From Sinorhizobium sojae CCBAU 05684 (GTDB lineage: Bacteria; Pseudomonadota; Alphaproteobacteria; Rhizobiales; Rhizobiaceae): DNA of 64,000 nt. Each line of letters starts with the position of its first letter. The first letter of the stretch is position 1. The notes below the pieces were generated by a model, which saw only the letters and a list, made by a program, of their open reading frames with translations, made no database searches and was not told the origin of the DNA. Location: contig NZ_CP023067.1 in the NCBI RefSeq assembly GCF_002288525.1, positions 992,001 through 1,056,000 of the forward strand, given 5' to 3'. The position numbers were made by a program, and so were the translations under genes. This document shows, piece by piece, positions 12,947 through 55,475 of this stretch.

Positions 12947-12947
12947 T

Positions 12948-35222: not shown

Positions 35223-35224
35223 CA

Positions 35225-35410: not shown

Positions 35411-35421
35411 TCGGAGATCGC

Positions 35422-37184: not shown

Positions 37185-37191
37185 CAGCACT

Positions 37192-37214
37192 GCCCGGTTG
37201 ACGGGCTTCTTCTT
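37192..37214 (+). terminator. Hairpin before the tail tube gene
   Basis: GCCCG pairs with CGGGC around GTTGA, followed by TTCTTCTT. It may tune expression between connector and tail tube genes. Confidence 0.55.
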
Positions 37215-37228
37215 GAAAGGAACCCTCA

Positions 37229-38170
37229 ATGACCATTGCAGATACCTCGGGCACCCGCCTTGCCTTCGTCACGGAGTCGACGGAAGGCACGACTCCTTCC
37301 TCCCCCACCTTCCAGGTTCTCCGCTTCACCGGCGAATCCCTCGTCGGCGAAAAGCAGACGGTCTCGTCGAACGAAATCCGCTCCGACGGCAACGTGCCGG
37401 ACGTCACCAAAGTCGGCAAGATGGTCTCGGGCGGCTTTGACTTCGAGCTGACCTATGCCACCCTCGACAGTCTGCTCGAAAGTGCGCTGCTCGGCACCTG
37501 GTCTTCGAACGTCCTGAAGAACGGCCGCGACCGGCACGCCTTCACCTTCGAAAAGACCTTCGAGACCGGCGCGACCGACGTCTTCCGCCGCTATGCCGGC
37601 TGCCTCATCAACACCACGACGCTGAATTTCCAGGCGAAGCAGATCGTCACCGGCAACATGTCCCTGATTGGCCGGTCCTATTCGGCGGCTGCCGCGGCAC
37701 TCTCCGGCGCCACCTATACCGCCGCCAACACCAAGGCGGTGATGAACTGCTCTTCCGACTTCGCCTCGCTGACGATCGGTTCCGTCTCCCCGGCGCTGCA
37801 GGTCCGCTCCATCCGCCTCAACCTCAACAACAACCTGCGGGCTCAGGACAAGATAGGTTCCGATGATCTGGCCGGCGTCGGCCTCGGTCAGCACGTCGTC
37901 ACCGGCTCGATCGAGGCATACCTCGAGAACAAGGCGGTCCTCGACCTGCTCGACAACCACACGAGTTCGTCGCTGTCCTTCACGGTCGGCTCGGTCTCGG
38001 GTGAGAAGTACACGATCAACCTGCCGAAGCTCTACATGACCGCAGGCGACGCGCAGACCCCCGGCAACAACCAGGACGTCATGGTCAACATGGACTTCCA
38101 AGCGATCTATGACACCTCGGGCTCGCCGGCCAACAACGCCAGCATCATCATCACGCGGGCCGTCTCCTAA
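37229..38170 (+). CDS. Major tail tube protein
   Basis: 313 residues preceded by GAAAGGA. TSGTRLAFVTESTEGTTPSS at the N-terminus and a beta-rich body are typical of tail tube proteins of this type. It is placed directly before the chaperone genes and tape measure. Strong codon bias fits high expression. Confidence 0.85.
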   Translation: MTIADTSGTRLAFVTESTEGTTPSSPTFQVLRFTGESLVGEKQTVSSNEIRSDGNVPDVTKVGKMVSGGFDFELTYATLDSLLESALLGTWSSNVLKNGRDRHAFTFEKTFETGATDVFRRYAGCLINTTTLNFQAKQIVTGNMSLIGRSYSAAAAALSGATYTAANTKAVMNCSSDFASLTIGSVSPALQVRSIRLNLNNNLRAQDKIGSDDLAGVGLGQHVVTGSIEAYLENKAVLDLLDNHTSSSLSFTVGSVSGEKYTINLPKLYMTAGDAQTPGNNQDVMVNMDFQAIYDTSGSPANNASIIITRAVS

Positions 38171-38346
38171 TGGCAGTCGTCCGCGTCATCCCCTCGCAGG
38201 ACTTCGATGGCTACCCGGACGGCATCAAGAAGGTGTCGTTCCAGGCGGGCGTCGAAGCCTCCGTTCCCGAGCATTACGCCAAGCTCCTGACCGACAAGGG
38301 CATGGCTACCCGCAAGAAATCCAAAGCCACCCCCGACAACGAATAG
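38170..38346 (+). CDS. Small tail-region protein
   Basis: 58 residues (MAVVRVIPSQDFDGYPDGIK ... basic tail). The ATG overlaps the tube stop (TAATG). Function unknown. Confidence 0.62.
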   Translation: MAVVRVIPSQDFDGYPDGIKKVSFQAGVEASVPEHYAKLLTDKGMATRKKSKATPDNE

Positions 38347-38357
38347 TGTGCACGCTA

Positions 38358-38388
38358 GGCCGTGGCGGGTGTCGGGCTCGCCACGGCC
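38358..38388 (+). promoter_or_regulatory. Perfect 10-bp hairpin before the tail chaperone genes
   Basis: GGCCGTGGCG (38358-38367) pairs with CGCCACGGCC (38379-38388) with an 11-base loop and no T tract. It probably acts as an attenuator or mRNA stabiliser between the abundant tube message and the chaperones. Confidence 0.6.
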
Positions 38389-38415
38389 ACCCCTCCCGAC
38401 AGAAGGAATCCCGAT

Positions 38416-38838
38416 ATGCAGATTGACGGCTTTGTTCCCGCCGACAAGACGATTGCGCTCGAAGAGGGCGTGACGTTCGTCTATGACACGCCCTACGGCA
38501 ACGTGACGATCATTTCCAAGATTGCCGGCGACGATAACGAGGACTTCACGCAAGCCTTCGTCAAGCTCTCCCAGCGCCATGACCGCGAGCGCAAGCTCGG
38601 TCAGGTCGACGCGGTGAAGCAGTTCTCCGACATCATCCGCCTCTATGGAACGACGGTTGTCCTGAAATGGTCGACGACGGCGAAGTCTGCAGGCAAGCCG
38701 ATCGAGTCCACCGTCGACAACTTCGTGGCGATGATGGAAACCCCGGCCTTCCGGCGCGTCTTCGCGCTGTTTCAGGAGGATTGCGGCGACCTCGCCAACT
38801 TCCGCGCCAAACAGGAAGAGGACGCCGCAAAAAACTGA
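38416..38838 (+). CDS. Tail assembly chaperone (gpG-like)
   Basis: 140 residues from the ATG at 38416 with AGAAGGAAT upstream. It ends at the slippery site ...GCA AAA AAC TGA. As in lambda G/GT, the short form is made without frameshifting and coats the tape measure during tail assembly. Confidence 0.85.
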   Translation: MQIDGFVPADKTIALEEGVTFVYDTPYGNVTIISKIAGDDNEDFTQAFVKLSQRHDRERKLGQVDAVKQFSDIIRLYGTTVVLKWSTTAKSAGKPIESTVDNFVAMMETPAFRRVFALFQEDCGDLANFRAKQEEDAAKN

Positions 38839-39170
38839 TCGAGGCCCTGCTCTGGAATCTGGAGTGGGGCGAACATCTCGAATTTCTCCAGGATAGACGA
38901 GATGCCGGTAAATCGGCTCCAGCGCTCGACAGGCGCGTTTTGCCGGATCAGGGCAACGCATTCTTCTGGAAAGCCTTCCAGACGCTCAGCAAGGCCCGCA
39001 GGCCGGCTTTTGACGGTGTCTCCGATATCCTGATTGCCGACATTCTCGCCTATGCCGATCTGGTCGGGGTCCGTGACCTCGATCTTCGGGGGCAACTCTG
39101 CCGGATCGTCGTCGCGATGGACGAGGCGGCTCTCGAATGGGCTCGCGCCCGCAAACCACAACCGAAATAA
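38416..39170 (+). CDS. Tail assembly chaperone frameshift product (gpGT-like)
   Basis: A canonical -1 slippery heptamer A AAA AAC (38829-38835) lies directly before the gpG stop. Slipping back one base joins residue 140 to a downstream frame (38835-39170: LIEALLWNLEWGEHLEFLQD and onward), giving a 251-residue fusion. The second part has no good start of its own. This layout is a conserved feature of long-tailed phages. Confidence 0.85.
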
Positions 39171-39182
39171 GGGTCTGACGCT

Positions 39183-41999: not shown

Positions 42000-42002
42000 G
42001 CT

Positions 42003-42635
42003 ATGGTCGATCATTCCACCGCGATCCTCTCCGACAATCTGGCGGTCGGCTACACCTCGGGGCCGGAGTTCCTGACGGCGATCACGTCGGTTTCAGGCGG
42101 CTATGAACGTCGGAACGCGCGCAGGGCCAACCCCCGCTGGCGTTTTGACTTCTCCATTGCCGAGCTCAACGACGATGAAATCCGCGACATGCTCGACTTC
42201 TACATGGGCCGCCGCGGGCCGCTCTATTCGTGGCTCTTGAAAGACCCGTGGAATTTCGAGCTCGTCGACGAAACGGCGCTGATCGGCGGGACGGTGCTTG
42301 TCGCGGCCGGCGGCGAAACCACGGCCCAGGTCATCAAGCGCTATGACATCGGGGGGAACCCCTTTACCCGCACGATCAAGTACATCGCCTCGGGCACGCT
42401 CAAGGTCTATGTCGACGGCGTTCTTGATGGTAGCGCAACCCATACAGACGGACTCGTCACGCTCTCCGCTCCGCTCACCGCGGGACAGGTGGTGACGATC
42501 GGCACGGCTGCATCACCGACCGAATATTATTTCCCCGTCCGCTTCCGGAACGACTTCGCCGGCCTGCAGATGTCCTCGCAATCGGCCAATTACGGTTCCA
42601 TCCAGAGCTTTGACGCACAAGAGGTGCTGGAATGA
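42003..42635 (+). CDS. Distal tail protein (DUF2460, GTA-like)
   Basis: 210 residues. GPEFLTAITSVSGGYERRNA and MLDFYMGRRGPLYSWLLKDP are typical DUF2460 motifs of GTA and siphophage tail proteins. It is first of a three-gene baseplate set. Confidence 0.88.
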   Translation: MVDHSTAILSDNLAVGYTSGPEFLTAITSVSGGYERRNARRANPRWRFDFSIAELNDDEIRDMLDFYMGRRGPLYSWLLKDPWNFELVDETALIGGTVLVAAGGETTAQVIKRYDIGGNPFTRTIKYIASGTLKVYVDGVLDGSATHTDGLVTLSAPLTAGQVVTIGTAASPTEYYFPVRFRNDFAGLQMSSQSANYGSIQSFDAQEVLE

Positions 42636-43549
42636 GGAACGCCTCGGCCGCCCTCAAGAGCGCCGCTGCATCAACCGTGACGACGCTTGGCTGGCTGTGC
42701 CGGATCACGACCATCGACGGCGCGAATGTCTACCTGAACAATTTCGGCAAGAACGTCACCGTCGGCGGGAATGTCTACCTCGGCAATCCAGGCTTTGACA
42801 TTGGCAATATCCGGGTGACGGACGGCCGCGACCCGCCCTCGGTCGAATTGATCCTGCCAATCGACGACACGACGCCCATTCTCTTCGACGCCGCCGCACG
42901 GCGCAAGCTCGACCAGGCCCGCATCCGGCTTTACATCATAGATCATTCCTCCCTGGAAAACGTCGAGATTGGCTTTCAATGGTATGTCGGCGCCGTCGAT
43001 GCGCTGGACAGCCGACGGGCGACCTTGGACGTCAGAGCGGCAGAGCGCGCCCAACGCGAATTGATGCTGAAGTCGTTCAAGCCGGGCTGCCAATGGGATC
43101 TAGGGGAAACGGGCTGCGGCGTCGACGTCGCCGGCTCATGGCAGGACTCTGTCACCGTCGCGACCTATACCGACGCCTTCACCTTCACGATTTCCGGTGC
43201 GCGCGGCGCGGCGGTCGATGACTTCTTCGCCAATGGCGCAATCAAGTTCACGTCGGGCGAGAATGAGGGCTTTTCCTATGCCGTCCGACGTTGGGTGCAG
43301 TCCTCGTCCACGGTGAAGCTCTGGGAGCCTCTGCGGGCTCCTGTGGCGGCTTCTGATACCGCTCTGATCCATGCAGGGTGTGACAAGTCCGTCGGGGCCA
43401 ATGGCTGCGAGCGGTTCTCCAACATCGCCCGGCGCTTCGCCTTCGAGGATCTTCCGACCGGCGATCTGACCTTCAACGTCAAGCAACCGGCGCCCGCGCA
43501 GGAATCGAGCGGCGACAACGACAGCTATGTAAGGTGGGCTCAAGGCTAA
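42632..43549 (+). CDS. Baseplate hub protein (DUF2163 / phage BR0599)
   Basis: 305 residues. The DUF2163 body is followed by the BR0599 C-terminal domain (LIHAGCDKSVGANGCERFSN) with paired cysteines. GTA homologues carry an iron-sulfur cluster in this type of hub. It overlaps both neighbours by 1-4 bases. Confidence 0.88.
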   Translation: MRNASAALKSAAASTVTTLGWLCRITTIDGANVYLNNFGKNVTVGGNVYLGNPGFDIGNIRVTDGRDPPSVELILPIDDTTPILFDAAARRKLDQARIRLYIIDHSSLENVEIGFQWYVGAVDALDSRRATLDVRAAERAQRELMLKSFKPGCQWDLGETGCGVDVAGSWQDSVTVATYTDAFTFTISGARGAAVDDFFANGAIKFTSGENEGFSYAVRRWVQSSSTVKLWEPLRAPVAASDTALIHAGCDKSVGANGCERFSNIARRFAFEDLPTGDLTFNVKQPAPAQESSGDNDSYVRWAQG

Positions 43550-46500
43550 TGGCGTGGGGGATAGTCGGACAGAGCGGCGTAACGCCATATGGCCCGTTCT
43601 ATGGCATTGCGACGACCGAACCCGTTGTCACGTCTTCCGGCGGCACGTCGTCTGGAGAAATCGGCCTGCCGTCTCCGCTGGGCGACAAGATCCCGCAGGG
43701 CATCGGCACGTTCCCGGTCTACGGCAAGCTGATCGTCGACCCCGATCTGCTGGGCGGCGTCACGCAATCCGGCGACACGACCAAGGTCAATCTCGTTCTG
43801 GCGTTCTGCGAAACGTCCCTGGGCGGCACGGTGTCGCTGATCAACCTCAAGGCCAACGACAAGTACATCTATCGCACGGAGACGCCGACCAAGACCTTTC
43901 CCGGCACGATCCGCTTCTATGGCGGCGACCAGGCGGCGCTCGACACGTTGCTCGAGGACAACCTCGATAACCCGACCTATTGGCCGAAACTCGCCTATGC
44001 GGTGCTGGAAGGGTTTGATATCGCGCCCTATGGCAATCAGCTTCCGTCATTCCAGGCAGAGCTTTCGACCGGGGCAAGCTCGAGCGCGCTTTCCAGCGCA
44101 GAGGCAACGCTCAATTTCGGCGCGATCCATGATGGTTCCGGCGGCGATGAAAACGCCATAGACCGGGTCCGCAACCACTTCTACACGTCCGACCTCGATA
44201 ACTCGACGGGCGACGTCTACATCCTCACCATCGATATCCTGACCAATCAGGAGATCAACCGGGCCAAGGTCTCGTGGGCTGGCGGGACGACCGACTACAT
44301 CGGCTATTGGGTGTCTCTCGACGGCTCGGATTACATCGTCGGCGCCCTGATCGATGACGCGGACAACCTCTATAAACTCGCCCTCATCAACACGGTGACG
44401 GGCGTCGTTGATGAAGTCCTGGCCCCGCTCACCAAGACCGGCACGCCGTTTGAGCCGAATCCGATCCGGGCGCAACTGATCTCGAGCGGAGCGGCGACGA
44501 AGTATCTCGTCTATTCGGATGCAATCGGCACGGTCAGCGACGGCAATTGCCCGCTGATGGTCACAGTAGCCGACATCACCGCCGGCACGCTCACGAACAT
44601 CGTACACCAGTTCACAAACCCGGTTGCGGCGAGTGGGTCGGGTGAAATCAGGTCAACATGCCCCGGCCCATCCGTCGATGGCACGGCGATCATGTTTTTC
44701 GTTCCGTCCGACGCAGGCGGCGGCGAGGATAACAACGTCTGGAAAGCGGTCTTTTCTGAAGCCGGAATCGTCTCCGTTGCCATCGCCCATACCGGCACGG
44801 ATTGCCGAGACGTCGCCTACGATTGGACCGATGACACCATTGTCGTCTACGACGCCACCGGCGCGCTGAAGAAGATCGATAGCCTGGGGTCCACCCTCTA
44901 CACGGTCGCGACTGGCGTTACCGATCTCCGGATCAACTATTCGCATTACGAGACGGGCGGCCAGTTCAATTTCAAATGCCGGGACGGGTTCGCGGCCGGC
45001 TGCCGGGTCTTCGGCGATGGCGCGGTCTATCTGATCGACCTCTCCGACGGCTCCACGTCGTTCATCATCGACGATAGCGACTACATGAGCGGCTACGTCT
45101 ATTACGACCAGTCGAAGGGCTATCTGACCACGGACGCGGTGAACCTGACGTTCTCCGGCATGACGCGCTACACCCTGCCGCTCTCCACGGTTCCCGTCTT
45201 CGACCTGCAGACCGTTTACACGAAGCTGGCGGAGTACCGCGGCAAGTTCTCGTCCTCGGATCTGACCTTCACCAACTTCTCCGGGGGTGAGTGCTACGGC
45301 GTCGTCTATGAGAACGACACCACGCTCGACAATGCCGAGCAGGACGCCAACAACATCTTCGACGTCAAGATCGTCCCCTCCGACGGCAAGCGGAAATACA
45401 TCAAGGCCAAGCGCGACGGCTCCTTCGCCGTGGACGACACCCTTGCATCAACCGATATCGTCGAGCAGGCCGAATTCAACATCCGCAAGACCATGCTCTC
45501 GGACGAGCAATCGCTTGTCGGGGCCCGGATCTCCTACATCGACAAGAACGCCCGGTTCGAAAGGACGGAGCAGGAATACCGCCGGCCGGTCGGCATCTAC
45601 TCGGTCACCCGCTCCGATCGGGTCGAAGACGTCTCCACCAACTTCGTCCTGTCGTCCACCCAGGCGATGCAGGCCGTCACGACGAAGGTCTACCGCTCGA
45701 ATTTCGGGCTTGATCAGTATGCCTTCACGCTGGCACCGAGCAATTTCTACAACGAGCCCGCCGATATCGTGCAGTTCGATTTCGAAGGCTTCACCATCGT
45801 CGGCCAGATCAACGAGGCGAACCTTTCCGGAGAACTGTTCACCCAGGACGTGGTTGTCACCCAATACGTGCAGGCGATCGATGCGGACTTCACCGGCGTC
45901 GACCTCAACCTGTCGGACATTACCGACCCGTCATGGCTGACGCGGTTTCTGTATCTCGACGCGCCGCTTTTGAGCCTGGGCGATGACCTCGGGGGAACAG
46001 CGGTTCGGCAATATGCAATGCTGTCCGGCTATGGGTATGGCACATTCCAGGGCGCCACACTGTACCGCTCGTACGATGGAAGCTCATACGGGGTGCTGAC
46101 CTCCCGCTATGGCGTCTCGCCCGTCGTTGGGCGTCTGGAGGCGATTACGGGTAGCCCTGTGGTTAATCCGGGCACGGACACCGCGTCGAGCCTCACGGTC
46201 GCGGTCATCTCGGGCGATACGGCCGACCTCGCCAGCATTACACAGGCCGAGCTCTACACCGGTCAGAACAAGGCGCTGGTCGGCAAGCCTGGGCGGTGGG
46301 TGATCATCTATTTCCAGACTGTTTCCGTCACCGACAAGACCGCGACGATTTCCAACATCATCTGGTCGGCTCCGCACTATCAGACGTTCTTGGATGACCT
46401 GACGGCCGGGGATTATTTCGTCCTTCTCCAGCCCGGTCACCATGTCCGGTTCGCGGGCGAGGCCGGGCGGCTCGGCGATAGCGTCTTCTACAAGGCGGCG

Positions 46501-46896
46501 TCGGATGCCTTCAACATCTCGCAGGTTCCGACCGAGTCGCATACCCTCGTCGGGCGGGCGGAAATGCCGTTCCCAGCCACGAACCTCACGGCGTCAATCG
46601 TCGGATCAGACATTGCGCTCGGCTGGGATTGGCGCTCAAGGCTCAACCCGATCGCCATTCTGACCGGGCCGGCCGATACGGTTCATGGAGAATCCAGCCT
46701 GTCCTTCGAGATCGACATCATGGACGGCTCGACGGTGAAGCGCACGCTGACCGCAACGACCAACGAAAAGACCTATCTCGCCGCGGACATCTCTTCGGAT
46801 TGGGGCTCAATGCCGGCCGATATCACCTTCCGCGTCTACCAGATCAGCGCGCTCGTCGGGCGCGGCTATGTCGCTGAAGATACCATAACCCTCTAG
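43549..46896 (+). CDS. Tip-attachment / central tail protein
   Basis: 1115 residues from the ATG at 43549 (TAATG overlap). It begins MAWGIVGQSGVTPYGPFYG and contains a GTA gp15/J-like core (residues about 560-800: YRGKFSSSDLTFTNFSGG ... RRPVGIYSVTRSDRVEDV ... NEPADIVQFDFEGF). Beta-rich domains and a fibronectin-like end (ATNLTASIVGSDIALGWDW) follow. It forms the tail tip that meets the host surface. Confidence 0.85.
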   Translation: MAWGIVGQSGVTPYGPFYGIATTEPVVTSSGGTSSGEIGLPSPLGDKIPQGIGTFPVYGKLIVDPDLLGGVTQSGDTTKVNLVLAFCETSLGGTVSLINLKANDKYIYRTETPTKTFPGTIRFYGGDQAALDTLLEDNLDNPTYWPKLAYAVLEGFDIAPYGNQLPSFQAELSTGASSSALSSAEATLNFGAIHDGSGGDENAIDRVRNHFYTSDLDNSTGDVYILTIDILTNQEINRAKVSWAGGTTDYIGYWVSLDGSDYIVGALIDDADNLYKLALINTVTGVVDEVLAPLTKTGTPFEPNPIRAQLISSGAATKYLVYSDAIGTVSDGNCPLMVTVADITAGTLTNIVHQFTNPVAASGSGEIRSTCPGPSVDGTAIMFFVPSDAGGGEDNNVWKAVFSEAGIVSVAIAHTGTDCRDVAYDWTDDTIVVYDATGALKKIDSLGSTLYTVATGVTDLRINYSHYETGGQFNFKCRDGFAAGCRVFGDGAVYLIDLSDGSTSFIIDDSDYMSGYVYYDQSKGYLTTDAVNLTFSGMTRYTLPLSTVPVFDLQTVYTKLAEYRGKFSSSDLTFTNFSGGECYGVVYENDTTLDNAEQDANNIFDVKIVPSDGKRKYIKAKRDGSFAVDDTLASTDIVEQAEFNIRKTMLSDEQSLVGARISYIDKNARFERTEQEYRRPVGIYSVTRSDRVEDVSTNFVLSSTQAMQAVTTKVYRSNFGLDQYAFTLAPSNFYNEPADIVQFDFEGFTIVGQINEANLSGELFTQDVVVTQYVQAIDADFTGVDLNLSDITDPSWLTRFLYLDAPLLSLGDDLGGTAVRQYAMLSGYGYGTFQGATLYRSYDGSSYGVLTSRYGVSPVVGRLEAITGSPVVNPGTDTASSLTVAVISGDTADLASITQAELYTGQNKALVGKPGRWVIIYFQTVSVTDKTATISNIIWSAPHYQTFLDDLTAGDYFVLLQPGHHVRFAGEAGRLGDSVFYKAASDAFNISQVPTESHTLVGRAEMPFPATNLTASIVGSDIALGWDWRSRLNPIAILTGPADTVHGESSLSFEIDIMDGSTVKRTLTATTNEKTYLAADISSDWGSMPADITFRVYQISALVGRGYVAEDTITL

Positions 46897-46904
46897 GGGC
46901 ACCC

Positions 46905-47657
46905 ATGACGAACAACACTGGACGCACCCCGGTTGCCGCCAACCAGGGGTCAGGGGTCTTTGACGACCTTGAGGACAACCTCGGGCGGCTCGACGCGAAA
47001 CTGACGGAAGCCCTGACGGTTTCCGTTGACAGCACGTCGGAAAGCCTGACGTCGGCACAGATGCAGGCCAATGCCTGCTTCATCCTCAACACCGGTTCCC
47101 CGGCTCCTGGCGGCCCGGTAACGCTCACGGTCGCCGCGGTCGAGATCGGCCGCTTCACCGTCGTCAACAACACCAGCCAGACGGTCACGGTGACCATTTC
47201 CGGGCAGGTGGTAACAGCGCCGACCGTCGCCAGCGGATCGACGCAAACCTTCATCTCGGACGGTGTCAATGTCCGGGCGGCGGTCTCGGCTCCGAGCACG
47301 GGAACGGCGTTCGAACTCGTCGTCGCTGCTTCCGACGAGACAACGACGCTCACCACCGGCACGGCAAAGGTCACGTTTCGCATGCCGCGGGCGGTCACGC
47401 TTACGGCGGTTCGGGCATCGCTCACGACGGCTTCATCTTCCGGTGTCGTGACCGTCGACATCAACGAGGGCGGCGTTTCGATCCTCTCCACGGCAATCAC
47501 CATCGACGCGAACGAGAAGACATCGACCACGGCGGCGACGCCTCCCGTCATCTCCGACTCCTCACTCGCAGACGACGCAGAAATGACCATCGACATCGAC
47601 ACGGCAGGGACAGGGGCCAAGGGGCTCAAGGTCGCGCTGATCGGAACAAGGAGCTAA
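46905..47657 (+). CDS. Tail fibre-like structural protein
   Basis: 250 residues. The C-terminal 130 residues (FELVVAASDETTTLTTGTAK ... PPVISDSSLADDAEMTIDID) are a module found in many phage structural proteins next to receptor-binding genes. Beta-rich and threonine-rich. Confidence 0.75.
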   Translation: MTNNTGRTPVAANQGSGVFDDLEDNLGRLDAKLTEALTVSVDSTSESLTSAQMQANACFILNTGSPAPGGPVTLTVAAVEIGRFTVVNNTSQTVTVTISGQVVTAPTVASGSTQTFISDGVNVRAAVSAPSTGTAFELVVAASDETTTLTTGTAKVTFRMPRAVTLTAVRASLTTASSSGVVTVDINEGGVSILSTAITIDANEKTSTTAATPPVISDSSLADDAEMTIDIDTAGTGAKGLKVALIGTRS

Positions 47658-47661
47658 AACA

Positions 47662-48081
47662 TTGGCGGCTTTCAACAAAATCAACGCTTTCGTCGAGAAC
47701 CTGGCGGAGAAGGTGCACAACCTTGGGGCGGACCAACTTGTCGTGGCCCTGACGGCGGCGGCAAATGCGCCGGTTGCGACCAACAGCGTCTTGGCCGATC
47801 TCACGCAGATCAGCTACACGAACCTGTCATCGCGCAACGTCACGACCTCGTCGTCGTCACAGACGTCCGGCACTTACAGCCTTGTGCTCGCCGACCTGAC
47901 GCTGACGGCGTCCGGCGGCTCTGTCGGGCCGTTCCGGTACATCGCGCTCTACAACGACACGCCGACGTCGCCGGCAGACCCGCTTATCGGCTGGTACGAC
48001 TATGGCTCCGACCTGACGCTTGCCGACGGCGAAAGCCTCACCATCGACTTCAGTGCAAGCGGCGCGATCACGATCGCCTAA
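47662..48081 (+). CDS. Small tail/fibre protein
   Basis: 139 residues from a TTG start with ACAAGGAGC upstream. N-terminal helix NKINAFVENLAEKVHNLGAD followed by beta-rich sequence (YIALYNDTPTSPADPLIGWY). Likely part of the fibre or its attachment. Confidence 0.7.
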   Translation: MAAFNKINAFVENLAEKVHNLGADQLVVALTAAANAPVATNSVLADLTQISYTNLSSRNVTTSSSSQTSGTYSLVLADLTLTASGGSVGPFRYIALYNDTPTSPADPLIGWYDYGSDLTLADGESLTIDFSASGAITIA

Positions 48082-48092
48082 GCGGAGCATTC

Positions 48093-49223
48093 ATGAGCTT
48101 CCTCATCAACCCGTTCGTCTATCTGTCGGCCGGCGCGACGCTGACGGCAGAGGCCGGCACGTTCACCCTGACCGGTGTTAATGCGGGCCTGTTGCGCGCC
48201 TTGCGCATGGAGGCGGCTGCCGGCGCCTTCACGCTGACGGGTAACGACGCGGATATCTCGACCGGCTATCCCGATCTCGTAGCGGAGACCGGGACATTCA
48301 CCATCACGGGCAATGCCGCTGCGCTCACACGGGCGCTGCGCATGGAAGCAAGCGCCGGGGCGTTCTCGCTTACCGGCAACGTGGCAGGTCTCAGTAAGAC
48401 CCTCACCGTCCTTGCAGAGGGCGGGTCGTTCACGCTGACTGGCGTCGACGCGGCGTTCAAACGGGCGCTCGCCATGGCGGCGGCACAGGGCTCATTCACG
48501 CTAACGGGGAACGCGGCGACGCTAACTTATGGCGCGACAGACCCGAACTTCTCAAGCGTCGTTCTTCTGTGCGGCTTTGACGGTACGGACGGGGCGACCA
48601 CATCAACGGACGACAGCAACTCCGCCCACACGCTCACCTTCGTAGGCAACGCGCAACTCGACACGGCGCAGCAGAAGTTCGGCGGGTCCAGTCTGTTGCT
48701 TGATGGGACTGGCGATATAGTCACTTGCGCGGCAAGTACCGACTGGGACTTCGGAAGTTCCCCCTTCACCATCGAAATGTTTGCTCGTTTCAACACGATC
48801 ACATCCACAAGTAGGTCGGTTCTCGGCAGTTCTGGATCTAACGCAGCCAGCTTTGTGATGGGCATCAATGCTGGGCTGAGTAATTTCCAATTCGCATTCA
48901 GCTCGAATGGGGGATCGTCCTTCAACGAGATCATCACATCGTCCGGAGTCACTGCGGCGACCGGCCAGTGGTATCACCTCTGCGTCGATCGCGACGGCTC
49001 GAACAAGATCCGACTCTATATCGACGGCGTCATGCGCGGCAGCCTGACCACAGCCAACGCCATCAACTACGAAAGCACGGCTCTAGCGATCGGTGCGACT
49101 GACGGCACCGGGTCTTCAGACATGGATGGCTGGTTAGACGAGGTCCGCATTACCAAGGGCGTGGCGCGGTATGCATCCGATTCCGGCTTCACGGTTCCGA
49201 CGTCCGCCTATCCACGGTCATAA
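48093..49223 (+). CDS. Tail fibre with six short repeats and a LamG-like domain
   Basis: 376 residues. The first 150 residues contain six copies of a motif near G-(T/A/S)-F-(T/S)-(L/I)-T-G-(N/V), spaced about 20-23 residues apart. Residues about 150-370 form a concanavalin/LamG-like domain (DGTGDIVTCAASTDWDFGSS ... PFTIEMFARF ... GWLDEVRITKG) that usually binds glycans. It is the probable receptor-binding protein. Confidence 0.82.
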   Translation: MSFLINPFVYLSAGATLTAEAGTFTLTGVNAGLLRALRMEAAAGAFTLTGNDADISTGYPDLVAETGTFTITGNAAALTRALRMEASAGAFSLTGNVAGLSKTLTVLAEGGSFTLTGVDAAFKRALAMAAAQGSFTLTGNAATLTYGATDPNFSSVVLLCGFDGTDGATTSTDDSNSAHTLTFVGNAQLDTAQQKFGGSSLLLDGTGDIVTCAASTDWDFGSSPFTIEMFARFNTITSTSRSVLGSSGSNAASFVMGINAGLSNFQFAFSSNGGSSFNEIITSSGVTAATGQWYHLCVDRDGSNKIRLYIDGVMRGSLTTANAINYESTALAIGATDGTGSSDMDGWLDEVRITKGVARYASDSGFTVPTSAYPRS

Positions 49224-49239
49224 GAAATGCCGCGTTGAC

Positions 49240-49395
49240 CTAGTTGTGGGGCAGCACCGAAAAATACGAGAGGTCGAGCGACGAGCCCGAAACGACCAGG
49301 GCCGCCAAGCCGGAAACGATTATGGCGGTCAGCACTAACCACTCGACACCGGTAATGTCGGCTTTGCGCTTAGGCGGACGATATTCGGTGGGCAT
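49240..49395 (-). CDS. 51-residue membrane protein of the lipid cassette
   Basis: It begins MPTEYRPPKRKADITG and has one hydrophobic helix (residues about 19-39). The start is 6 bases downstream of the ICMT-like stop, so it is the last gene of the leftward cassette. Its stop lies 16 bases from the convergent tail fibre stop. Confidence 0.68.
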   Translation of the reverse strand: MPTEYRPPKRKADITGVEWLVLTAIIVSGLAALVVSGSSLDLSYFSVLPHN

Positions 49396-49401
49396 CGCTC
49401 T

Positions 49402-50079
49402 TTACCCTTCTTCAGCCCTTGCAACGGGCGTCAACGGCCTTGGGATCAACATGGGAACGCTGCTGGCGTAGCTGTCGTATTCAGGGAAAGTGCGTCTGAG
49501 GACGCGCTCCTCGTTGAACATCCGCCGTAACTGGAAGGCGAAGTGGGCGGCACCGACCAGCAACGCGGCCAGCGACCAGTTGGCGATCAGGAACCCGACG
49601 GCGCTGATTGCCTCCGCAGCATACAGCGGGTGGCGGACGATTGCATAGGGACCGGTCACGACGAGTTTGCGAGCTGATGCCATTACCGAGAACGAGCGCC
49701 CTAGCCAGAACAGACAGTAGATCGACAGTGCCGTGCCGATGAGGGCCAGGACGGTCGACGCGACGAGCATCCCAGGTCCGGCGGTGCCCCGCGGCAGCAC
49801 TATGAGGACCATCAGCCCAAACGTCCCCGCGAGCGCGCTCAGTCGGGGCTCTATCCCCTCCGCGCTCCGCCGCGGCGGCAGTCGAACCACTGTCAGGCCG
49901 ACGACCAAGCACAAGAACAGCAAACCCAGCAATCGCGAAGAGAGGACGAGCGGCCAGAATTCTATGCTCTCCCGAAACCGAATGACCGCTACGATCGAGG
50001 CGACCTGCTGCAGCGCCAGGTAAAAGAAGACGAGTGTAAGGAAAGTCTTGCCCAGAAGATCTTCGATCCTGCTGATCAT
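49402..50079 (-). CDS. Isoprenylcysteine carboxyl methyltransferase-like membrane enzyme
   Basis: 225 residues with five or more hydrophobic helices. The ICMT/PEMT signature is present: VTGPYAIVRHPLYAAEAISA, then NEERVLRRTFPEYDSYASSV. The family methylates small lipids, phospholipids or prenyl carboxyls using AdoMet. It overlaps the fatty acid hydroxylase-like gene by 4 bases, so both act in one pathway or complex. Confidence 0.85.
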   Translation of the reverse strand: MISRIEDLLGKTFLTLVFFYLALQQVASIVAVIRFRESIEFWPLVLSSRLLGLLFLCLVVGLTVVRLPPRRSAEGIEPRLSALAGTFGLMVLIVLPRGTAGPGMLVASTVLALIGTALSIYCLFWLGRSFSVMASARKLVVTGPYAIVRHPLYAAEAISAVGFLIANWSLAALLVGAAHFAFQLRRMFNEERVLRRTFPEYDSYASSVPMLIPRPLTPVARAEEG

Positions 50080-50888
50080 GGGTGCGTGTCTCCTGGTTGT
50101 TGCTGCGATAACGCGCCCGCAGGAACTCGAAGCTGCTTGAGTGGATAGGCGAGTTGCTGGTGATAGAGCGGGGGCACCGGATCATCGGTGCCGTAGACCC
50201 TCGGCATACGCTCAGGCATGTACAAAGTGCCAGCGAGGGCATCGATGAAGGGCAGCTGGCCGGCGAAGTTTTTGTCGTAGGCCTGTCGCTCGTTGGCATG
50301 GTGCCAGTGATGGAATTGAGGAGAGGCGAGCACCCATTTGAGAGGGCCGAACCTGATCCGAGTGTTTGAATGGATCAAAAGCGACTGCGCCTGATAAATC
50401 AAAGCATAGATCGCGATTGCAGATCCGGAGAAGCCAAGAGCGTAAACCGGAATCAGGGAGGCAGCCGAGGTCACGATCTGGTCGACCGGATGAACACGAT
50501 GCGCGGCCAGCCAATCCATCTCCTCGATGCTGTGGTGGACAGAGTGAAACTTCCACAGGAACGGCACGGAATGGAAGGCGCGGTGCGCTAGGTAAAATCC
50601 TATATCGGCAACAAGAGTGACCTCGATCGCCTGCAACCATATCGGCTGGGCTTGCACCACAGCGAACACGCCTCCCGGAATGACAAACCGGATGGCGATC
50701 ATGATCGAGCCGACCAGGGCGATGAAACCGAGCTTGATCAGAATGCTGTTGAAGAAGAGGTAGATCACGTCGTTCAGCCAGTGCTTTCGCAGCACTTTCT
50801 GATCAGCGTGAAGCGGGAGAAGCCGCTCGAGCGGAATGAAGATCATGGCGATTATCAGGATCGCCTTCAGGTCGATGAGCTCTAACAT
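50076..50888 (-). CDS. Sterol desaturase / fatty acid hydroxylase family protein
   Basis: 270 residues from the ATG at 50888. It has membrane helices and all diiron histidine boxes: HRAFH, HSVHH, HRVHP and FHHWHH. The family hydroxylates or desaturates lipids at the membrane with O2. It overlaps the PAP2 gene by 7 bases and the ICMT-like gene by 4. The substrate is unknown; a lipid acyl chain or ceramide-like lipid is a reasonable guess from the neighbours. Confidence 0.88.
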   Translation of the reverse strand: MLELIDLKAILIIAMIFIPLERLLPLHADQKVLRKHWLNDVIYLFFNSILIKLGFIALVGSIMIAIRFVIPGGVFAVVQAQPIWLQAIEVTLVADIGFYLAHRAFHSVPFLWKFHSVHHSIEEMDWLAAHRVHPVDQIVTSAASLIPVYALGFSGSAIAIYALIYQAQSLLIHSNTRIRFGPLKWVLASPQFHHWHHANERQAYDKNFAGQLPFIDALAGTLYMPERMPRVYGTDDPVPPLYHQQLAYPLKQLRVPAGALSQQQPGDTHP

Positions 50889-51880
50889 GTAACACCCGAT
50901 GATTGCTTGTTTTGGCTCGGCGCATCGAAAAGCCGCCAAAAAAAGAAAACGGCAGCAGCAGAGACATACCCGTCCACCGCATAGTGCCAGCCGAAGTAGA
51001 CCGAGCCGAGCAACGTCAGGGCGGCGAAAGCCCATCCCGCGAGCCCGAGCCACCGGTTAATTTGCGTCAGAAAGAGTGCGTTCAGGCTTGCAACTGCCAC
51101 GTGGATGCTCGGCATTGCTGAGATGCCGGCGAAGATGTCCTCCGCGCCGGAAACATAGGCGGCATATAGCCGCTCGGCGACAAAGAAATGGTATCTGGCG
51201 TCCGGGTTTTGTTTGAGTGTCAGGACGAGCTCTGCGAACCGGCCTTCACCGAAAAACTGATCATAGAATATGGGCCCGACGGAGGCAGTTACGGCGGCCA
51301 GCAGGGTGCCCAGGACCGCGTAAGTCGCGGCGAATGATCGCAGGTATCTTGATCGCAGCCGATCGCTTGGGTGGAAGGCGGCCAAGGCAATGCAGCCGAT
51401 GAACTCGAGCAGCCAAAGTGGGAAATAGACGATGAGCATGGGTTGCATCGCGATCGGGGGAATTATGGAGTGCACCAAACGCCACGGATCGCCGAAGTGA
51501 ATCATGCGGTCAGTCTCTGCGAGAGCGTGATCTGCGTAGAACGGAACGACGAGCGGGATATGGAACTTCACTGTCCAGAACGCCGCCATGCCGACGCATA
51601 TAACCGCAGCGATGACAAGCGCTCCGCTTCCTCGGCGCCTAATGATGCCGGCCACGTGGCTGAGAGGTGCCGTCGGGCGGCTAACAATGGCGGAAGCCAA
51701 CAGACCGAGGGCGGACAGGACAAGCGCTGCGGGCAGCACTTGCAGCGCGAATGCGCTCAGGTTCCGCATGTACAGCGCGGGAGCGAAACTGAAGGCCGCG
51801 ATCACATAGGCTCCGCAAGAGATGCTCAACCACCGCGACGGTCGCCTTGATGCGGAAGTGCTGATTACAGCTTCGGTCAT
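50882..51880 (-). CDS. PAP2_3 / inositol-phosphorylceramide-synthase-like membrane enzyme
   Basis: 332 residues from the ATG at 51880 (a start 36 bases upstream is possible). It has seven or so membrane helices and the lipid phosphatase/transferase motifs S-A-M-P-S-I-H and GWHYAVDGY in the C-terminal third, as in Aur1/IPC-synthase-type PAP2 proteins. Such enzymes move a phospho-headgroup between lipids or remove phosphate. First gene of the leftward cassette. Confidence 0.82.
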   Translation of the reverse strand: MTEAVISTSASRRPSRWLSISCGAYVIAAFSFAPALYMRNLSAFALQVLPAALVLSALGLLASAIVSRPTAPLSHVAGIIRRRGSGALVIAAVICVGMAAFWTVKFHIPLVVPFYADHALAETDRMIHFGDPWRLVHSIIPPIAMQPMLIVYFPLWLLEFIGCIALAAFHPSDRLRSRYLRSFAATYAVLGTLLAAVTASVGPIFYDQFFGEGRFAELVLTLKQNPDARYHFFVAERLYAAYVSGAEDIFAGISAMPSIHVAVASLNALFLTQINRWLGLAGWAFAALTLLGSVYFGWHYAVDGYVSAAAVFFFWRLFDAPSQNKQSSGVTC

Positions 51881-51906
51881 AATAGGTAGCCCCCATATCC
51901 CACGCG

Positions 51907-51935
51907 ATTGAACCACTGGTTGCGCCTGACGGCAA
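51907..51935 (-). promoter_or_regulatory. Candidate promoter of the lipid cassette
   Basis: On the minus strand TTGCCG (51935-51930) and TTCAAT (51912-51907) are separated by 17 bases, 27 bases before the PAP2 start. It would let the cassette be expressed from the silent prophage, independent of late transcription. Confidence 0.45.
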
Positions 51936-51972
51936 TATCATCCTTTCTGGTTAGTTAATGGGGTCAACACCG

Positions 51973-53193
51973 ATGGCAACTCCTCCGGTTCCGGACGACG
52001 TGATCCTGCGCTCGCTTGAGGCGTTGGCGGCCTGCGGCGGGAACCAGTGCAGGGCCGCCGAGATGATCGGCATCAGCCGGGCCGGGCTACAGGGTCACTT
52101 GAAGATGGCCGCACGCCGGGGGTTGGTTGCGCCGGCCAATGCCGCGCAGGTGATGCCCGGATTTGAGGTCACGCGAGTCCAGACAGGCCCGCGCGGAACC
52201 ACGATCGAACAGAAGCCGGGGCCGGGAGAAGTCTTCACCGTCCCGGAAGGCCACAAGATCAAGGGCGTCTCCGCCTTCATCGATCCGGACGGCCGAGTCC
52301 GCGGGCAATGGGTGAAGACGCGGGAAGGGGAGCCGGATCCGGAGCGCACCGCCGAAATCATCAAGGCCGCATTCGAAAACTTCGAACCGAAGGCTCCGAT
52401 CGTGCTTCCGCCGCGGGACAGCGATACCGAAAGGCTGACGGCCTACATCTTCTGCGACTGGCATGTCGGGCTGTTCGCCTGGGGTCGGGAGACGGGCGGG
52501 GCCGATTGGGATCTGACCATCGCTCGAGAGACGCTTTCCGCCGCGGTGCGTGAGATTGTCGAGACGTCGCCGCCAAGTGCTCAGGCGGTCATTCTCGGCC
52601 TTGGCGACCTTCTCCATGCTGATAACGGCCGGAACATGACGGAGCGATCCGGCAACGTTCTGGACGTCGACACCCGCTATTCCAAGTGCCTCGAAACCGT
52701 CTGCGACCTGATGGCCGAATCCTCGGAACTGATCGCGGCGAAACACAAGCACGTCGAAGCTGTCTTCAAGCCAGGCAATCACGACGAGAACAGCACCGTG
52801 GGCATCCGCCAGGCGCTCCGCATGTACTGGCGGGATAATGAGCGGGTTTCCGTCGACACCAGCCCGGACGCTTTCTACTGGCGCCGCTTCGGCGTCAACC
52901 TGATCGGCGGGACGCATGGAGACAAGGCGAAGCCCCCAGACCTTCCGATGATCATGGCGAACCGGCGGAAAGAAGACTGGAGCGCCACGGCGACCCGACA
53001 CATCCACACCGGTCATATTCATCACGATACGGAGCGCGAGATCGGCGGCGTGCATGTCTATTCGCACCGGGCTCCGGTCGCACAGGACGCCTACCACGCC
53101 TGGCACGGCTATCTCTCCGGCCGATCGATGAAGAGCTACACCTATCACGTCGAGAAGGGCGCCAGAGGCCATTCCGAAGTCGAAATCTCATGA
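51973..53193 (+). CDS. HTH-metallophosphoesterase protein
   Basis: 406 residues from the ATG at 51973 (an ATG at 51958 is possible). An N-terminal helix-turn-helix (NQCRAAEMIGISRAGLQGHL) is joined to a calcineurin-like phosphoesterase: DWHVG, GLGDLLHADNG, GNHDEN, GTHGDK and HTGHIHH supply the metal ligands. Similar HTH-phosphoesterase proteins occur in late regions of alphaproteobacterial phages; I do not know their role. It is divergent from the lipid cassette. Confidence 0.82.
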   Translation: MATPPVPDDVILRSLEALAACGGNQCRAAEMIGISRAGLQGHLKMAARRGLVAPANAAQVMPGFEVTRVQTGPRGTTIEQKPGPGEVFTVPEGHKIKGVSAFIDPDGRVRGQWVKTREGEPDPERTAEIIKAAFENFEPKAPIVLPPRDSDTERLTAYIFCDWHVGLFAWGRETGGADWDLTIARETLSAAVREIVETSPPSAQAVILGLGDLLHADNGRNMTERSGNVLDVDTRYSKCLETVCDLMAESSELIAAKHKHVEAVFKPGNHDENSTVGIRQALRMYWRDNERVSVDTSPDAFYWRRFGVNLIGGTHGDKAKPPDLPMIMANRRKEDWSATATRHIHTGHIHHDTEREIGGVHVYSHRAPVAQDAYHAWHGYLSGRSMKSYTYHVEKGARGHSEVEIS

Positions 53194-53200
53194 GGCAACC

Positions 53201-53350
53201 ATGGCGCGCTTCCACATCAGGGTCACGAAAAACGAAGACGGCAGCATCAAGCGCGAATTGATGCGGGAAGAATACAAGATCGCGGACGTGTCGAAGGCCG
53301 AGATCATCGACATGCTGATGCAGTTTTCGAGCTCGCTCCGGTACGACTGA
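53201..53350 (+). CDS. Small hypothetical protein
   Basis: 49 residues (MARFHIRVTKNEDGSIKREL), seven bases after the phosphoesterase gene with TGAGGCAAC as ribosome site. Helical C-terminus. Function unknown. Confidence 0.62.
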   Translation: MARFHIRVTKNEDGSIKRELMREEYKIADVSKAEIIDMLMQFSSSLRYD

Positions 53351-53410
53351 CCCCGCGTTATACCCTTTCCGCAGATTCGTTATAACCGGCATCTCCCCAT
53401 AGGAACCCCC

Positions 53411-53644
53411 ATGAAACTGATCGCCGATTGGCGGGCGGTGCTGCGCTATGCGTGGTCGTTCCGGCTGAACATCCTTGCCGCCCTGCTTTCCGGGCTCGAG
53501 GTCTGGTTCACGTTTATCAACCCCGAAAGCCTGCCGATCCCGCACGGCACGTTCGCCGCCTTGGCGTGCGTGACGACCATCCTCGCGAACATCGCCCGCT
53601 TCGTGGCGCAAACGTCCATCTCAGGAGGAAAGCCCGATGAGTAG
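53411..53644 (+). CDS. Holin-like membrane protein
   Basis: 77 residues with two hydrophobic segments (about 16-34 and 47-65) and short charged ends, preceding the endolysin by an 8-base overlap. It is the usual holin slot; similar proteins in rhizobial prophages (DUF7940-like) are annotated as holins. Confidence 0.75.
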   Translation: MKLIADWRAVLRYAWSFRLNILAALLSGLEVWFTFINPESLPIPHGTFAALACVTTILANIARFVAQTSISGGKPDE

Positions 53645-54104
53645 GCTTAAGAAGGCCGGCAAGATGACGGCGATCGGTGCGGCCGCAATCGCCCTCGTCG
53701 GCGCATGGGAAGGGCTGCGCACAGTGGCCTATCGCGATGTTGTCGGGATTCCCACCGTCTGCTTCGGCGAGACCCGCGGCGTAAAGATGGGCGATCGGTA
53801 TTCGGTCGACGAATGCAAGGTGATGCTCGGTGACGCGCTCGTTGAGTTTGAAGCCGGTATGCGCGCTTGCCTGAAGAACCCCGACGGCCTGCCTGACAAG
53901 GTCTATGTGTCGTTCCTGTCCGCCTCCTACAACATCGGGACGCGGGCGTTCTGCGGCTCGTCAATGGCTCGCAAGGCGAATGCCGGCGATCTCCGCGGTG
54001 CGTGCGATTCCCTGGCGCTCTGGAATAAGGCCGGCGGCCGCGTCGTCAAGGGCCTCACCAATCGCCGCGCCGAAGAGCGCCGGCTTTGCCTTGAGGGGCT
54101 GTGA
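53637..54104 (+). CDS. SAR-type endolysin (GH24 lysozyme)
   Basis: 155 residues. An N-terminal hydrophobic segment (residues 11-23, rich in Ala/Gly) looks like a signal-arrest-release anchor. Catalytic residues follow with T4-lysozyme spacing: Glu25 (GAWEGLR), Asp34 (YRDVVG) and Thr40 (IPTVCFGET). Cysteines at 42, 59, 78 and later could regulate release by disulfides. It degrades peptidoglycan at lysis. Confidence 0.92.
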   Translation: MSRLKKAGKMTAIGAAAIALVGAWEGLRTVAYRDVVGIPTVCFGETRGVKMGDRYSVDECKVMLGDALVEFEAGMRACLKNPDGLPDKVYVSFLSASYNIGTRAFCGSSMARKANAGDLRGACDSLALWNKAGGRVVKGLTNRRAEERRLCLEGL

Positions 54105-54460
54105 TGCTCGGTCGCTTCTTGGACTGGGTTTATATCGCCGTCGGCGCGCTCGCAGCCTTTGCACTCTTCAGCCTGTACGACGGCATGGTCGACGATCCTC
54201 TCGTGAGACGTGAAGCGCTCCGGGGGTACGTCCTCAAATCGGAACGCGATGCAATCGCCTCTCAGCTTGCCGAGGAACGACGTCGAGCGCTCGCTGCGGC
54301 ACAGACAGCCGAAGAGTTCAAACGGCGATACACGGCCCTCTCTGAGCGGAACAAGGCCAACAGCGAAAAAGCGGAGCAGGACATTGAAAGCGACAACCGC
54401 ACTGACGACGGCGCTCCTCGGGTTACTTCTGGGGATCTCGACTGGCTGTCAAAGCACTAA
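54104..54460 (+). CDS. i-spanin (Rz-like)
   Basis: 118 residues from the ATG at 54104. One N-terminal membrane segment (8-24) and a long periplasmic coiled coil (about 40-90). It lies after the endolysin and overlaps the o-spanin gene, the standard Rz/Rz1 layout. Confidence 0.8.
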   Translation: MLGRFLDWVYIAVGALAAFALFSLYDGMVDDPLVRREALRGYVLKSERDAIASQLAEERRRALAAAQTAEEFKRRYTALSERNKANSEKAEQDIESDNRTDDGAPRVTSGDLDWLSKH

Positions 54461-54695
54461 CCAGCGCCTCCAGCAAGCCGCCATCCAGCAAGGACAGGCG
54501 AGGGCGACGGTGATCCTGCCCGACCTTCCGCAAGCCTGCCGCGATGCAACCGGCGTCGTGAACCCGAAAGAGGGCGAGAAATGGCGCGGCGTCCAGCTTC
54601 GATGGCAGGTGGTCCGTGAGAACGAGAACGAGATCAAGACTGCATGCGCTGAATTCTACGACCAACTCCGGCAACGCCTGGCGAAAGGGGAATGA
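54384..54695 (+). CDS. o-spanin lipoprotein (Rz1-like)
   Basis: 103 residues from a TTG start. A signal peptide with lipobox GISTGC (Cys near residue 21) is followed by a proline-containing helical domain. It overlaps the i-spanin end by 77 bases in another frame. Together they fuse inner and outer membranes at lysis. Confidence 0.75.
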   Translation: MKATTALTTALLGLLLGISTGCQSTNQRLQQAAIQQGQARATVILPDLPQACRDATGVVNPKEGEKWRGVQLRWQVVRENENEIKTACAEFYDQLRQRLAKGE

Positions 54696-54696
54696 C

Positions 54697-55014
54697 ATGC
54701 TGAAGGGCATCATCTTGGGCGCGCTGTCTCTGATCGCGCTGGCGTTCATCCTCTTTTGCTTCTGGGTCCAGCCCGCCGTGGCGCAAGTAGACCCCAGCAC
54801 ATGTGCACCGCGCCGCGAGTTGATCGATTCGCTAAAGGCCACCTACGGAGAAACCGAATCCTGGGTCGGCAAGGACGCCAAGGACAAGGCCGCTGTCTTC
54901 CTGCTGATGACGGGCAAGAACGGATCTTGGACCTTGCTCAAGGTCATGCCCGACGTCGCCTGCGTGATTGCAGCCGGATCCGAATCCACCAACCTGTTTG
55001 GAACGCCGGTATGA
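54697..55014 (+). CDS. Small exported protein at the prophage right end
   Basis: 105 residues from the ATG at 54697. The start MLKGIILGALSLIALAFILF is a signal peptide or anchor with a cleavage-like AVAQ near 29. Two cysteines follow. It lies after the spanins and is duplicated, broken, at 1-183. Function unknown. Confidence 0.75.
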   Translation: MLKGIILGALSLIALAFILFCFWVQPAVAQVDPSTCAPRRELIDSLKATYGETESWVGKDAKDKAAVFLLMTGKNGSWTLLKVMPDVACVIAAGSESTNLFGTPV

Positions 55015-55322
55015 CGACCGAAAGCGAAACCCAGCGCAGCCTCGGCCGCCTCGAGGGCAAGCTCGACATGATCCTGGCCGATCAGGAACAAGCCCGGTTT
55101 GCCCGTCAACATCAAATGGAAAAGTCGGAAGCGATCGAGCGCCGGCTGGATGCGACCGATCAAAAGCTCTCGTCGGTCACCGACCGCTTCAATGAAGCTG
55201 CGCCGATCATCTCGGATATCAAGCGGTGGAAGGAACGGTTCATTGGGGCGCAGATGCTCATTGCCGGCGTCTTCGTCGCCATTGGCGGGGGATTGCCCTG
55301 CTGTGGAAATGGCTGGCCGTGA
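55011..55322 (+). CDS. Coiled-coil/TM protein at the prophage right end (DUF1515-like)
   Basis: 103 residues from the ATG at 55011, overlapping the preceding stop. The start TTESETQRSLGRLEGKLDMI and the coiled coil up to about residue 70, then a hydrophobic segment (about 77-95), resemble DUF1515-type proteins of rhizobial prophages; identification is from memory of the pattern. It is the last phage gene before the att site. Confidence 0.72.
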   Translation: MTTESETQRSLGRLEGKLDMILADQEQARFARQHQMEKSEAIERRLDATDQKLSSVTDRFNEAAPIISDIKRWKERFIGAQMLIAGVFVAIGGGLPCCGNGWP

Positions 55323-55339
55323 AGGTCGGGATGCAGTGA

Positions 55340-55367
55340 CGGCGGCGAGTGAAACAACCCGCCGCCG
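55340..55367 (+). terminator. GC-rich hairpin after the last phage gene
   Basis: CGGCGGCG pairs with CGCCGCCG, 8 bp, loop of 12 bases. It is the intact copy of the hairpin at 507-534. Confidence 0.5.
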
Positions 55368-55390
55368 TTAGAGACACGCCTATTGCCTCA

Positions 55391-55398
55391 GTGACACG
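55391..55398 (-). promoter_or_regulatory. Candidate integrase arm-type site (right copy)
   Basis: GTGACACG, 29 bases before the att core, is the right-hand copy of the site at 558-565. Confidence 0.42.
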
Positions 55399-55427
55399 GC
55401 TATATTGATTCTATTCACAGTTCTCGA

Positions 55428-55475
55428 AGCCTTCCAAGCTGAATACGCGGGTTCGATTCCCGCTACCCGCTCCAA
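55428..55475 (+). other. attR core: 3' part of tRNA-Gly(UCC)
   Basis: Same 48 bases as 595-642. The upstream side is phage DNA and the downstream side is host DNA leading to tuf. The functional tRNA-Gly with its host 5' half must lie left of the window. A tRNA-Gly upstream of tuf fits the tRNA-tuf clusters known in proteobacteria. Confidence 0.88.

Follow-up and report, generated by a model that had tools for sequence, protein, structure and literature searches.

Known phage conversion genes include gtr, oac and sieA, and the surface conversion brought about by prophages mostly alters sugars or proteins. The Acyl_transf_3 family also includes surface-conversion enzymes. The subject here is a cassette of four minus-strand open reading frames (ORFs) inside a prophage of Sinorhizobium sojae CCBAU 05684. 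The whole stretch of DNA that was analysed (64,000 nucleotides (nt), 992001-1056000 of contig C1, NZ_CP023067.1) is called the window below. The cassette spans 49240-51916 within it, in the gene order PAP2, fatty acid hydroxylase (FAH), methyltransferase (MT) and an ORF of 51 amino acids (51-aa ORF). On balance it is somewhat probable that this is a moron operon of Tad/Flp-locus-linked, probably envelope-lipid, genes that would convert an envelope lipid of the lysogen.

The cassette is like the morons of lysogenic conversion in being an accessory unit between phage genes that runs opposite to the late genes and is missing in close relatives; one other phage contig with a PAP2 gene (L161) also holds an Acyl_transf_3 gene. 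It is unlike them in being likely to tailor lipids and in having Tad-linked relatives, whereas the known genes act in O-antigen sugar or acetyl modification. The second close comparison is with rhizobial Tad/Flp (type IVc) loci. PAP2, FAH and MT genes lie next to cpaA in Pseudaminobacter soli (cpaA-PAP2-FAH-MT), and all four genes lie near tadDCBA in Rhizobium sullae, whereas the window has no match to the Tad queries used. None of the cassette genes appears in Table 1 of PMC10934763, on the flp clusters of S. meliloti. Among the literature matches listed, the gene set was not described in prophages or at Tad loci, which is no proof of absence, and the terms searched had no match in PMC12918737.

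Results and discussion

An earlier note on this DNA, made from the sequence alone, had proposed a leftward cassette of four lipid-modification genes. The four minus-strand ORFs were confirmed at this place, as were the three enzyme families named, by Pfam scores above their cut-offs. The first gene (50882..51916, minus strand) starts at an ATG at 51880 (332 aa) or a GTG at 51916 (344 aa) and encodes an Aur1-like membrane enzyme with both the gathering score (PAP2_3, 2.2e-17, 63.9 bits against a cut-off of 27) and the catalytic-type residues of a PAP2_3 member. S258, H260, H299 and D303 are invariant in 16 homologues, and the predicted model has a fold closest to inositol phosphorylceramide (IPC) synthase/Aur1, in line with the IPC-synthase likeness that had been suggested. 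The protein thus shares its predicted fold and its conserved Ser/His/His/Asp pattern with Aur1/IPC synthase and LpxE of the PAP2 superfamily, but is only 10-15% identical to them. Alignment A2 leaves out loci L005 and L011, for translation errors, and with them L007; L010, L014 and L016 were never included.

The second gene (50076..50888, minus strand, 270 aa) encodes a diiron enzyme of the FA_hydroxylase family (PF04116, 8.4e-30, 104.3 bits, cut-off 31), one relative of which is annotated as sterol desaturase family. Its diiron-type boxes read HRAFH, HSVHH and HHWHH, and the nine histidines are invariant in the 13 homologues aligned. The best named NCBIfam match is the ornithine-lipid hydroxylase OlsE (NF052566, 2.7e-31). 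The third gene (49402..50079, minus strand, 225 aa) encodes a membrane methyltransferase with a C-terminal PEMT/ICMT domain (PEMT, PF04191, 1.4e-8, 35.5 bits, cut-off 25; ICMT, PF04140, 2.7e-8, 34.6 bits, cut-off 24) and a weak match to phrog_26245, a family of unknown function (6.5e-7). Although it resembles the ICMT, LmtA, MddA and PEMT methyltransferases in this domain, it falls under the NCBIfam cut-offs for isopcys_mtase (41 against 160 bits), LmtA (35 against 325) and MddA (19 against 270). Identification of these proteins as true OlsE, ICMT or LmtA was rejected, as the NCBIfam cut-offs were missed.

The last ORF (49240..49395, minus strand) encodes a membrane protein that begins MPTEYRPPK and has a single hydrophobic stretch. 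Searches at E 1 against Pfam, NCBIfam and PADLOC gave no match to it. A 52-aa ORF lies in the same position, directly after MT, in R. sullae (40% identity over 52 aa; E 1e-6 for a search of that locus alone); no further convincing homologue was found in the fetched loci or in 394 genomes of the family (one other hit, at E 0.005). The R. sullae homologue led us to drop the idea that the ORF is noise. A by-eye likeness to Flp pilin was also discarded, there being no Pfam match and no GXXXXEY motif of the kind given in PMC10934763. A known anti-phage defence system was rejected too, as none of the four cassette proteins matched a PADLOC 2.0.0 model at E 1.

The claim that the genes overlap as one operon held for PAP2/FAH (7 nt) and FAH/MT (4 nt) but not for the 51-aa ORF, which does not overlap MT because a gap of 6 nt separates them. 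The neighbours on both sides (a LamG tail gene; phosphoesterase and lysozyme genes) are on the plus strand and the cassette is therefore antisense within the late region of the prophage, as had been stated. Its GC content is, as also claimed, somewhat lower, if modestly so (0.588 against 0.618 for the late region, where the minimum for any 2,677-bp stretch is 0.603); as a moron test on base composition, the cassette differs from its neighbours by a small margin. That the ORFs are chance ones is excluded by their families, low dN/dS and homologues.

Tad genes were found more often beside bacterial relatives of the cassette genes than in control regions. The R. sullae genes (PAP2 76%, FAH 90%, MT 83% and the 51-aa homologue 40% identical, order as in the window) are on megaplasmid pWSM1592_1, with tadD-, tadC-, tadB- and tadA-type genes 2-8 kb beyond them. 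In three Sinorhizobium genomes (G002, G019 and G017) FAH and MT follow cpaA without PAP2, and at loci of Mesorhizobium and Sinorhizobium PAP2 alone has Tad genes as neighbours. A Tad query matched within 6 kb in 10 of 15 PAP2 loci and in none of 40 control regions (Fisher p 1.0e-7), although 6-7 of the ten are Mesorhizobium loci that appear to be orthologous; with likely orthologues collapsed by hand the count was 4/9 (p 5.9e-4). For FAH, six of 20 loci had a match within 6.5 kb against 0/40 controls (p 7.7e-4). The controls were 40 regions of 13 kb, picked by hand at round coordinates in genomes G000, G002, G017, G019, G276, G286 and G411; they are neither random draws nor taken from the genomes of every one of the 15 PAP2 loci. 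L055, L155, L163 and L181 supplied the nine Tad queries, and three of these four belong to the six FAH loci that scored positive. Among the PAP2 loci, L007, L009 and L016 are shorter than 8 kb, the sole Tad match at L010 is TadG-like, and the FAH loci extend 6.5 kb per side except L182 (10.8 kb in total).

In a second batch of PAP2 stretches (L060-L066 and L069-L071), cpaA was found within about 1.5 kb in seven of ten, but these seven seem to be one orthologous Sinorhizobium locus, and L061 repeats L006. Of the three stretches without it, two belong to S. shofinae: the relic described below and its second PAP2. Several Sinorhizobium genomes (L062-L066 and L069) have a more divergent PAP2_3-like gene (about 32-34%) adjoining cpaA.

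Other phages were compared as well. Viral contigs and genome contigs were searched by short peptide patterns, so that all counts are lower bounds; the prophage status of IMG/VR contigs was judged from tail and lysis-type neighbours, and most neighbour names, including the endolysin-like genes of L017, L018 and L161, were assigned by eye. The central tail protein of the prophage found six viral-contig loci, five at 70-72% identity and the sixth (L088) at 31%. No cassette gene was present in the fetched stretches of the five closer contigs, of L088 or of the genome stretch L118. L118 and L083 seem to represent a single phage, as do L084 and L085. The slot region of these near relatives holds an SNase gene in L118 and a SocA-like gene in L087. 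The cassette therefore sits between conserved phage genes and is missing from close relatives, as expected of a moron.

The FAH query found at least four IMG/VR contigs (L017-L020, 51-54% identical). FAH is antisense in all of them and adjoins a homologue of the window LamG gene in L018, L019 and L020 and a different tail-like gene in L017. The gene on its far side is endolysin-like in L017 and L018 and encodes a multi-span protein in both L019 and L020. The PAP2 queries found at least three more (L021, L160 and L161). In L021 and L160 the antisense PAP2 has tail-type genes on one side and, on the other, homologues of the window DUF7940 and lysozyme genes, and in L161 the Acyl_transf_3 gene is followed by PAP2_3 in a comparable slot. 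Thus the search for the gene set in other prophages, which had been proposed, returned FAH or PAP2 singly in seven IMG/VR contigs but never the whole set. Since these contigs hold single enzymes and no viral MT was seen, the window and the S. shofinae relic are the only phage settings known for the whole set.

The occupants of the slot vary. In L163, a relative of L162 and L164 (the contigs of L019 and L020), a TadG-like gene (PF13400, L163:7551-9080) takes the place of FAH, and in L168, which resembles L160 in part, PAP2 is missing from the interval between the LamG and lysozyme genes. The multi-span protein (221 aa, no Pfam match; L019:3682-4344 and L020:1736-2419) recurs in P. soli (L004:9383-9880) and R. 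sullae (L181:17777-18313) and may be an additional member of the set. Other viral contigs (L078-L082) carry FAH-family genes of lower identity (30-34%). Among phage records FAH had two matches, both named 'Acinetobacter phage MD-2021a' (41.6%; record lengths 232 and 306 kb), and PAP2 and MT had none among 50,697 records at E 1e-5.

The FAH tree places the window copy in one group with four copies from Sinorhizobium (support 99/98), P. soli joining next (82/69). L017-L020 lie in a separate clade (99/99), intermixed with bacterial copies: L017 pairs with a G286 copy (99/98) and L018-L020 with a G144 copy (87/86). This tree leaves out G339, the second G286 copy and the first G144 copy (motif filter) and G225 (match in two frames). 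The PAP2 tree places the window copy with those of R. sullae, P. soli, Mesorhizobium albiziae and the S. shofinae cassette (99/98) and L160 as sister to the Mesorhizobium Tad-locus PAP2s (100/99); L021 is in an unresolved fork, the branch leading to L161 is long, and support is weak at nine of the 20 inner branches. Taken together, the two trees support at least three separate captures by phages, of the window type, the L017-L020 type and the L160 type.

In S. shofinae, PAP2, FAH and MT adjoin the remnant of a LamG gene whose frame is broken, and the relative orientation is that seen in the window. PAP2 and FAH are whole, and the MT match holds one TAG (frame of 220 aa). No other matches to genes of the window phage were found in about 36 kb around this cassette. 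We read the locus as a phage relic in which the cassette would have outlived its surroundings. A second PAP2, 31% identical and divergent from the cassette, is present there (L054:11263-12261).

The ratio of non-synonymous to synonymous substitution rates (dN/dS, by the Nei-Gojobori method, window copy against each homologue) is low throughout. For PAP2 it is 0.20 against S. shofinae, 0.20 against M. albiziae and 0.15 against P. soli (full range 0.15-0.30), for FAH 0.12-0.17 against five bacterial copies (full range 0.115-0.265) and for MT 0.17-0.29 against three bacterial copies. Against four phage copies it is 0.18-0.30, at dS of 1.6-2.3, which is near saturation.

These results suggest, but do not prove, that phages use such genes to change the envelope of their host. 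The operon would be read against the late genes in the lysogen. The PAP2_3 enzyme may move or remove a phosphate-linked headgroup of an inner-membrane lipid by Aur1/LpxE-like chemistry, the diiron enzyme would hydroxylate that lipid and the methyltransferase would add a methyl cap to it. FAH and MT may well work as a pair, because their relatives are fused in one 502-aa protein on a Loktanella salsilacus plasmid (L182:5007-6515), and the 51-aa protein would be a membrane partner. The changed lipid would alter the envelope in a way that favours both lysogen and prophage, either in stress and surface life or through fewer infections by rival phages. If true, recurrent morons that tailor lipids would extend conversion to a new target. 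The link of these enzyme families to Tad/Flp loci is unexpected and suggests that a widespread adhesion machine may have a lipid partner; the operon is small, with four genes, and present or absent among related Sinorhizobium, where it can be tested.

A number of observations weigh against a converting moron. The own promoter proposed earlier (51907-51935) was not supported: a sigma-70 consensus scan gave 0 sites against 1.2 in shuffles, and DNA homology to M. albiziae extends to 51916, the alternative GTG start of PAP2, so that the proposed -10 may fall within coding sequence. Terminators are at chance level (3 found, 2.9 expected), and in both respects the cassette may differ from phage morons. 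A Tad match was lacking at 14 of the 20 FAH loci and at five of the 15 PAP2 loci. Each of the seven IMG/VR contigs has either FAH or PAP2 but not both, and neither MT nor the 51-aa gene was seen in their fetched stretches; the MT query, by peptide pattern, found no relative in viral contigs. PAP2 is lost or truncated in bacterial genomes G002 (where a likely 42-bp trace remains, E 6e-4), G014 and G027, and from this decay its function is dispensable. Foldseek matches to the PAP2 model are weak, with a best E-value of 9.3e-3, and FAH has a poor model (predicted local distance difference test score, pLDDT, 67) that gave no useful structural match. FAH scores 109 bits against the OlsE cut-off of 475, failing the equivalog test. 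Finally, dN/dS was taken mostly against bacterial copies and cannot show selection on the prophage copy itself. The lysogenic conversion suggested in the earlier note stands in part: recurrence in phage contigs, intact motifs and accessory status argue for it indirectly, but the set is not peculiar to phages.

Conversion could take two narrower forms. It is possible, but rather unlikely, that the operon is cargo for host fitness with no anti-phage role, tailoring a lipid of surface life or plant association and favoured because lysogens would fare better in soil or on roots. That these genes are also present in chromosomes and on the megaplasmid of R. sullae agrees with this, as does the link of hydroxylated ornithine lipids to stress and host interaction reported in PMC3972451, but taken alone it leaves the phage contigs with only FAH or only PAP2, beside the last tail genes, unexplained.

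Superinfection exclusion proper, in which the operon would alter the envelope or the Tad/Flp pilus and so block entry of adsorbing competitors, is unlikely, if only slightly more so. Alphaproteobacterial phages such as phiCbK use Flp pili, and many of the bacterial relatives are Tad-linked. The Acyl_transf_3 and PAP2 genes of L161 and the TadG-like gene of L163 lie in like slots, and the multi-span protein beside FAH in L019 and L020 is found near the P. soli and R. sullae operons as well. On the other hand, PADLOC gave no match, and near-relative phages hold SNase or SocA-like genes in this region rather than surface genes. A bolder proposal seems quite unlikely. In it, rhizobial Tad/Flp pili would use a dedicated lipid-tailoring pathway of PAP2/Aur1-like transferase, diiron hydroxylase, methyltransferase and small membrane partner, parts or all of which temperate phages would have taken several times to remodel the envelope near the pilus, giving lipid-based superinfection exclusion at the Tad pilus or its membrane base.

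It is improbable that the cassette is a chance hitch-hiker, functionless in the prophage. The earlier note had named a chromosomal lipid operon moved by chance as the finding that would speak against a function, and half of this was found, because relatives are present on bacterial chromosomes and on a megaplasmid, in many cases next to Tad/Flp genes. Decay of the bacterial copies in some Sinorhizobium, the lack of a detected promoter and the absence of the cassette from near-relative phages also fit a hitch-hiker. Against it, motifs and frames are intact and PAP2 and FAH outlived the LamG gene in S. shofinae, and a single accident is disfavoured because other phage contigs hold captured FAH or PAP2 in like place and orientation.

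A lytic-phase role, in which membrane adjustment for lysis or virion release would explain the place near lysis genes (DUF7940/lysozyme genes are nearby in the window, L021 and L160), is very improbable, as the orientation opposes the neighbouring tail genes in the window and the seven contigs, no lysis gene was identified next to FAH in L019 or L020 and the bacterial relatives are not lysis genes.

Prophage and host context

The prophage is complete-looking and about 55 kb long (643..55475), as judged from phage families and a direct repeat at its ends. The integrase gene is at 691-1926 (minus strand), and the terminase (25871), portal (27418), tape-measure and tail genes (39183-46896) span 25871-46896. 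The cassette slot is bounded on the left by the LamG (Laminin_G_3) tail gene (48093..49223, plus strand; PF13385, 4.6e-22) and on the right by a phage phosphoesterase ('DNA repair exonuclease') gene (51958..53193, plus strand; phrog_704, 4.3e-90). Genes for a small DUF7940 protein and a phage lysozyme follow (53411..54104, plus strand, lysozyme 53637-54104; PF25612, 4.4e-16, and PF00959, 1.4e-35).

The host genome (6.09 Mb, 3 contigs) has no close second copy of the cassette: one DNA match, one PAP2 match and, at E 1e-40, one MT match were found, and the only FAH paralogue is distant (28%). The host's own cpaA locus has none of the cassette genes.

The direct repeat (748 bp, 98.8% identity) runs from L058 11903 to window position 642, covering window 1-642 and 98 bases to the left of the window, and again over 54729-55475, which is long for an attachment-site duplication. 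The phage tRNA-Trp (23978-24051) is about 80% identical over 61 bases to a tRNA-Trp outside the prophage (58993-59068).

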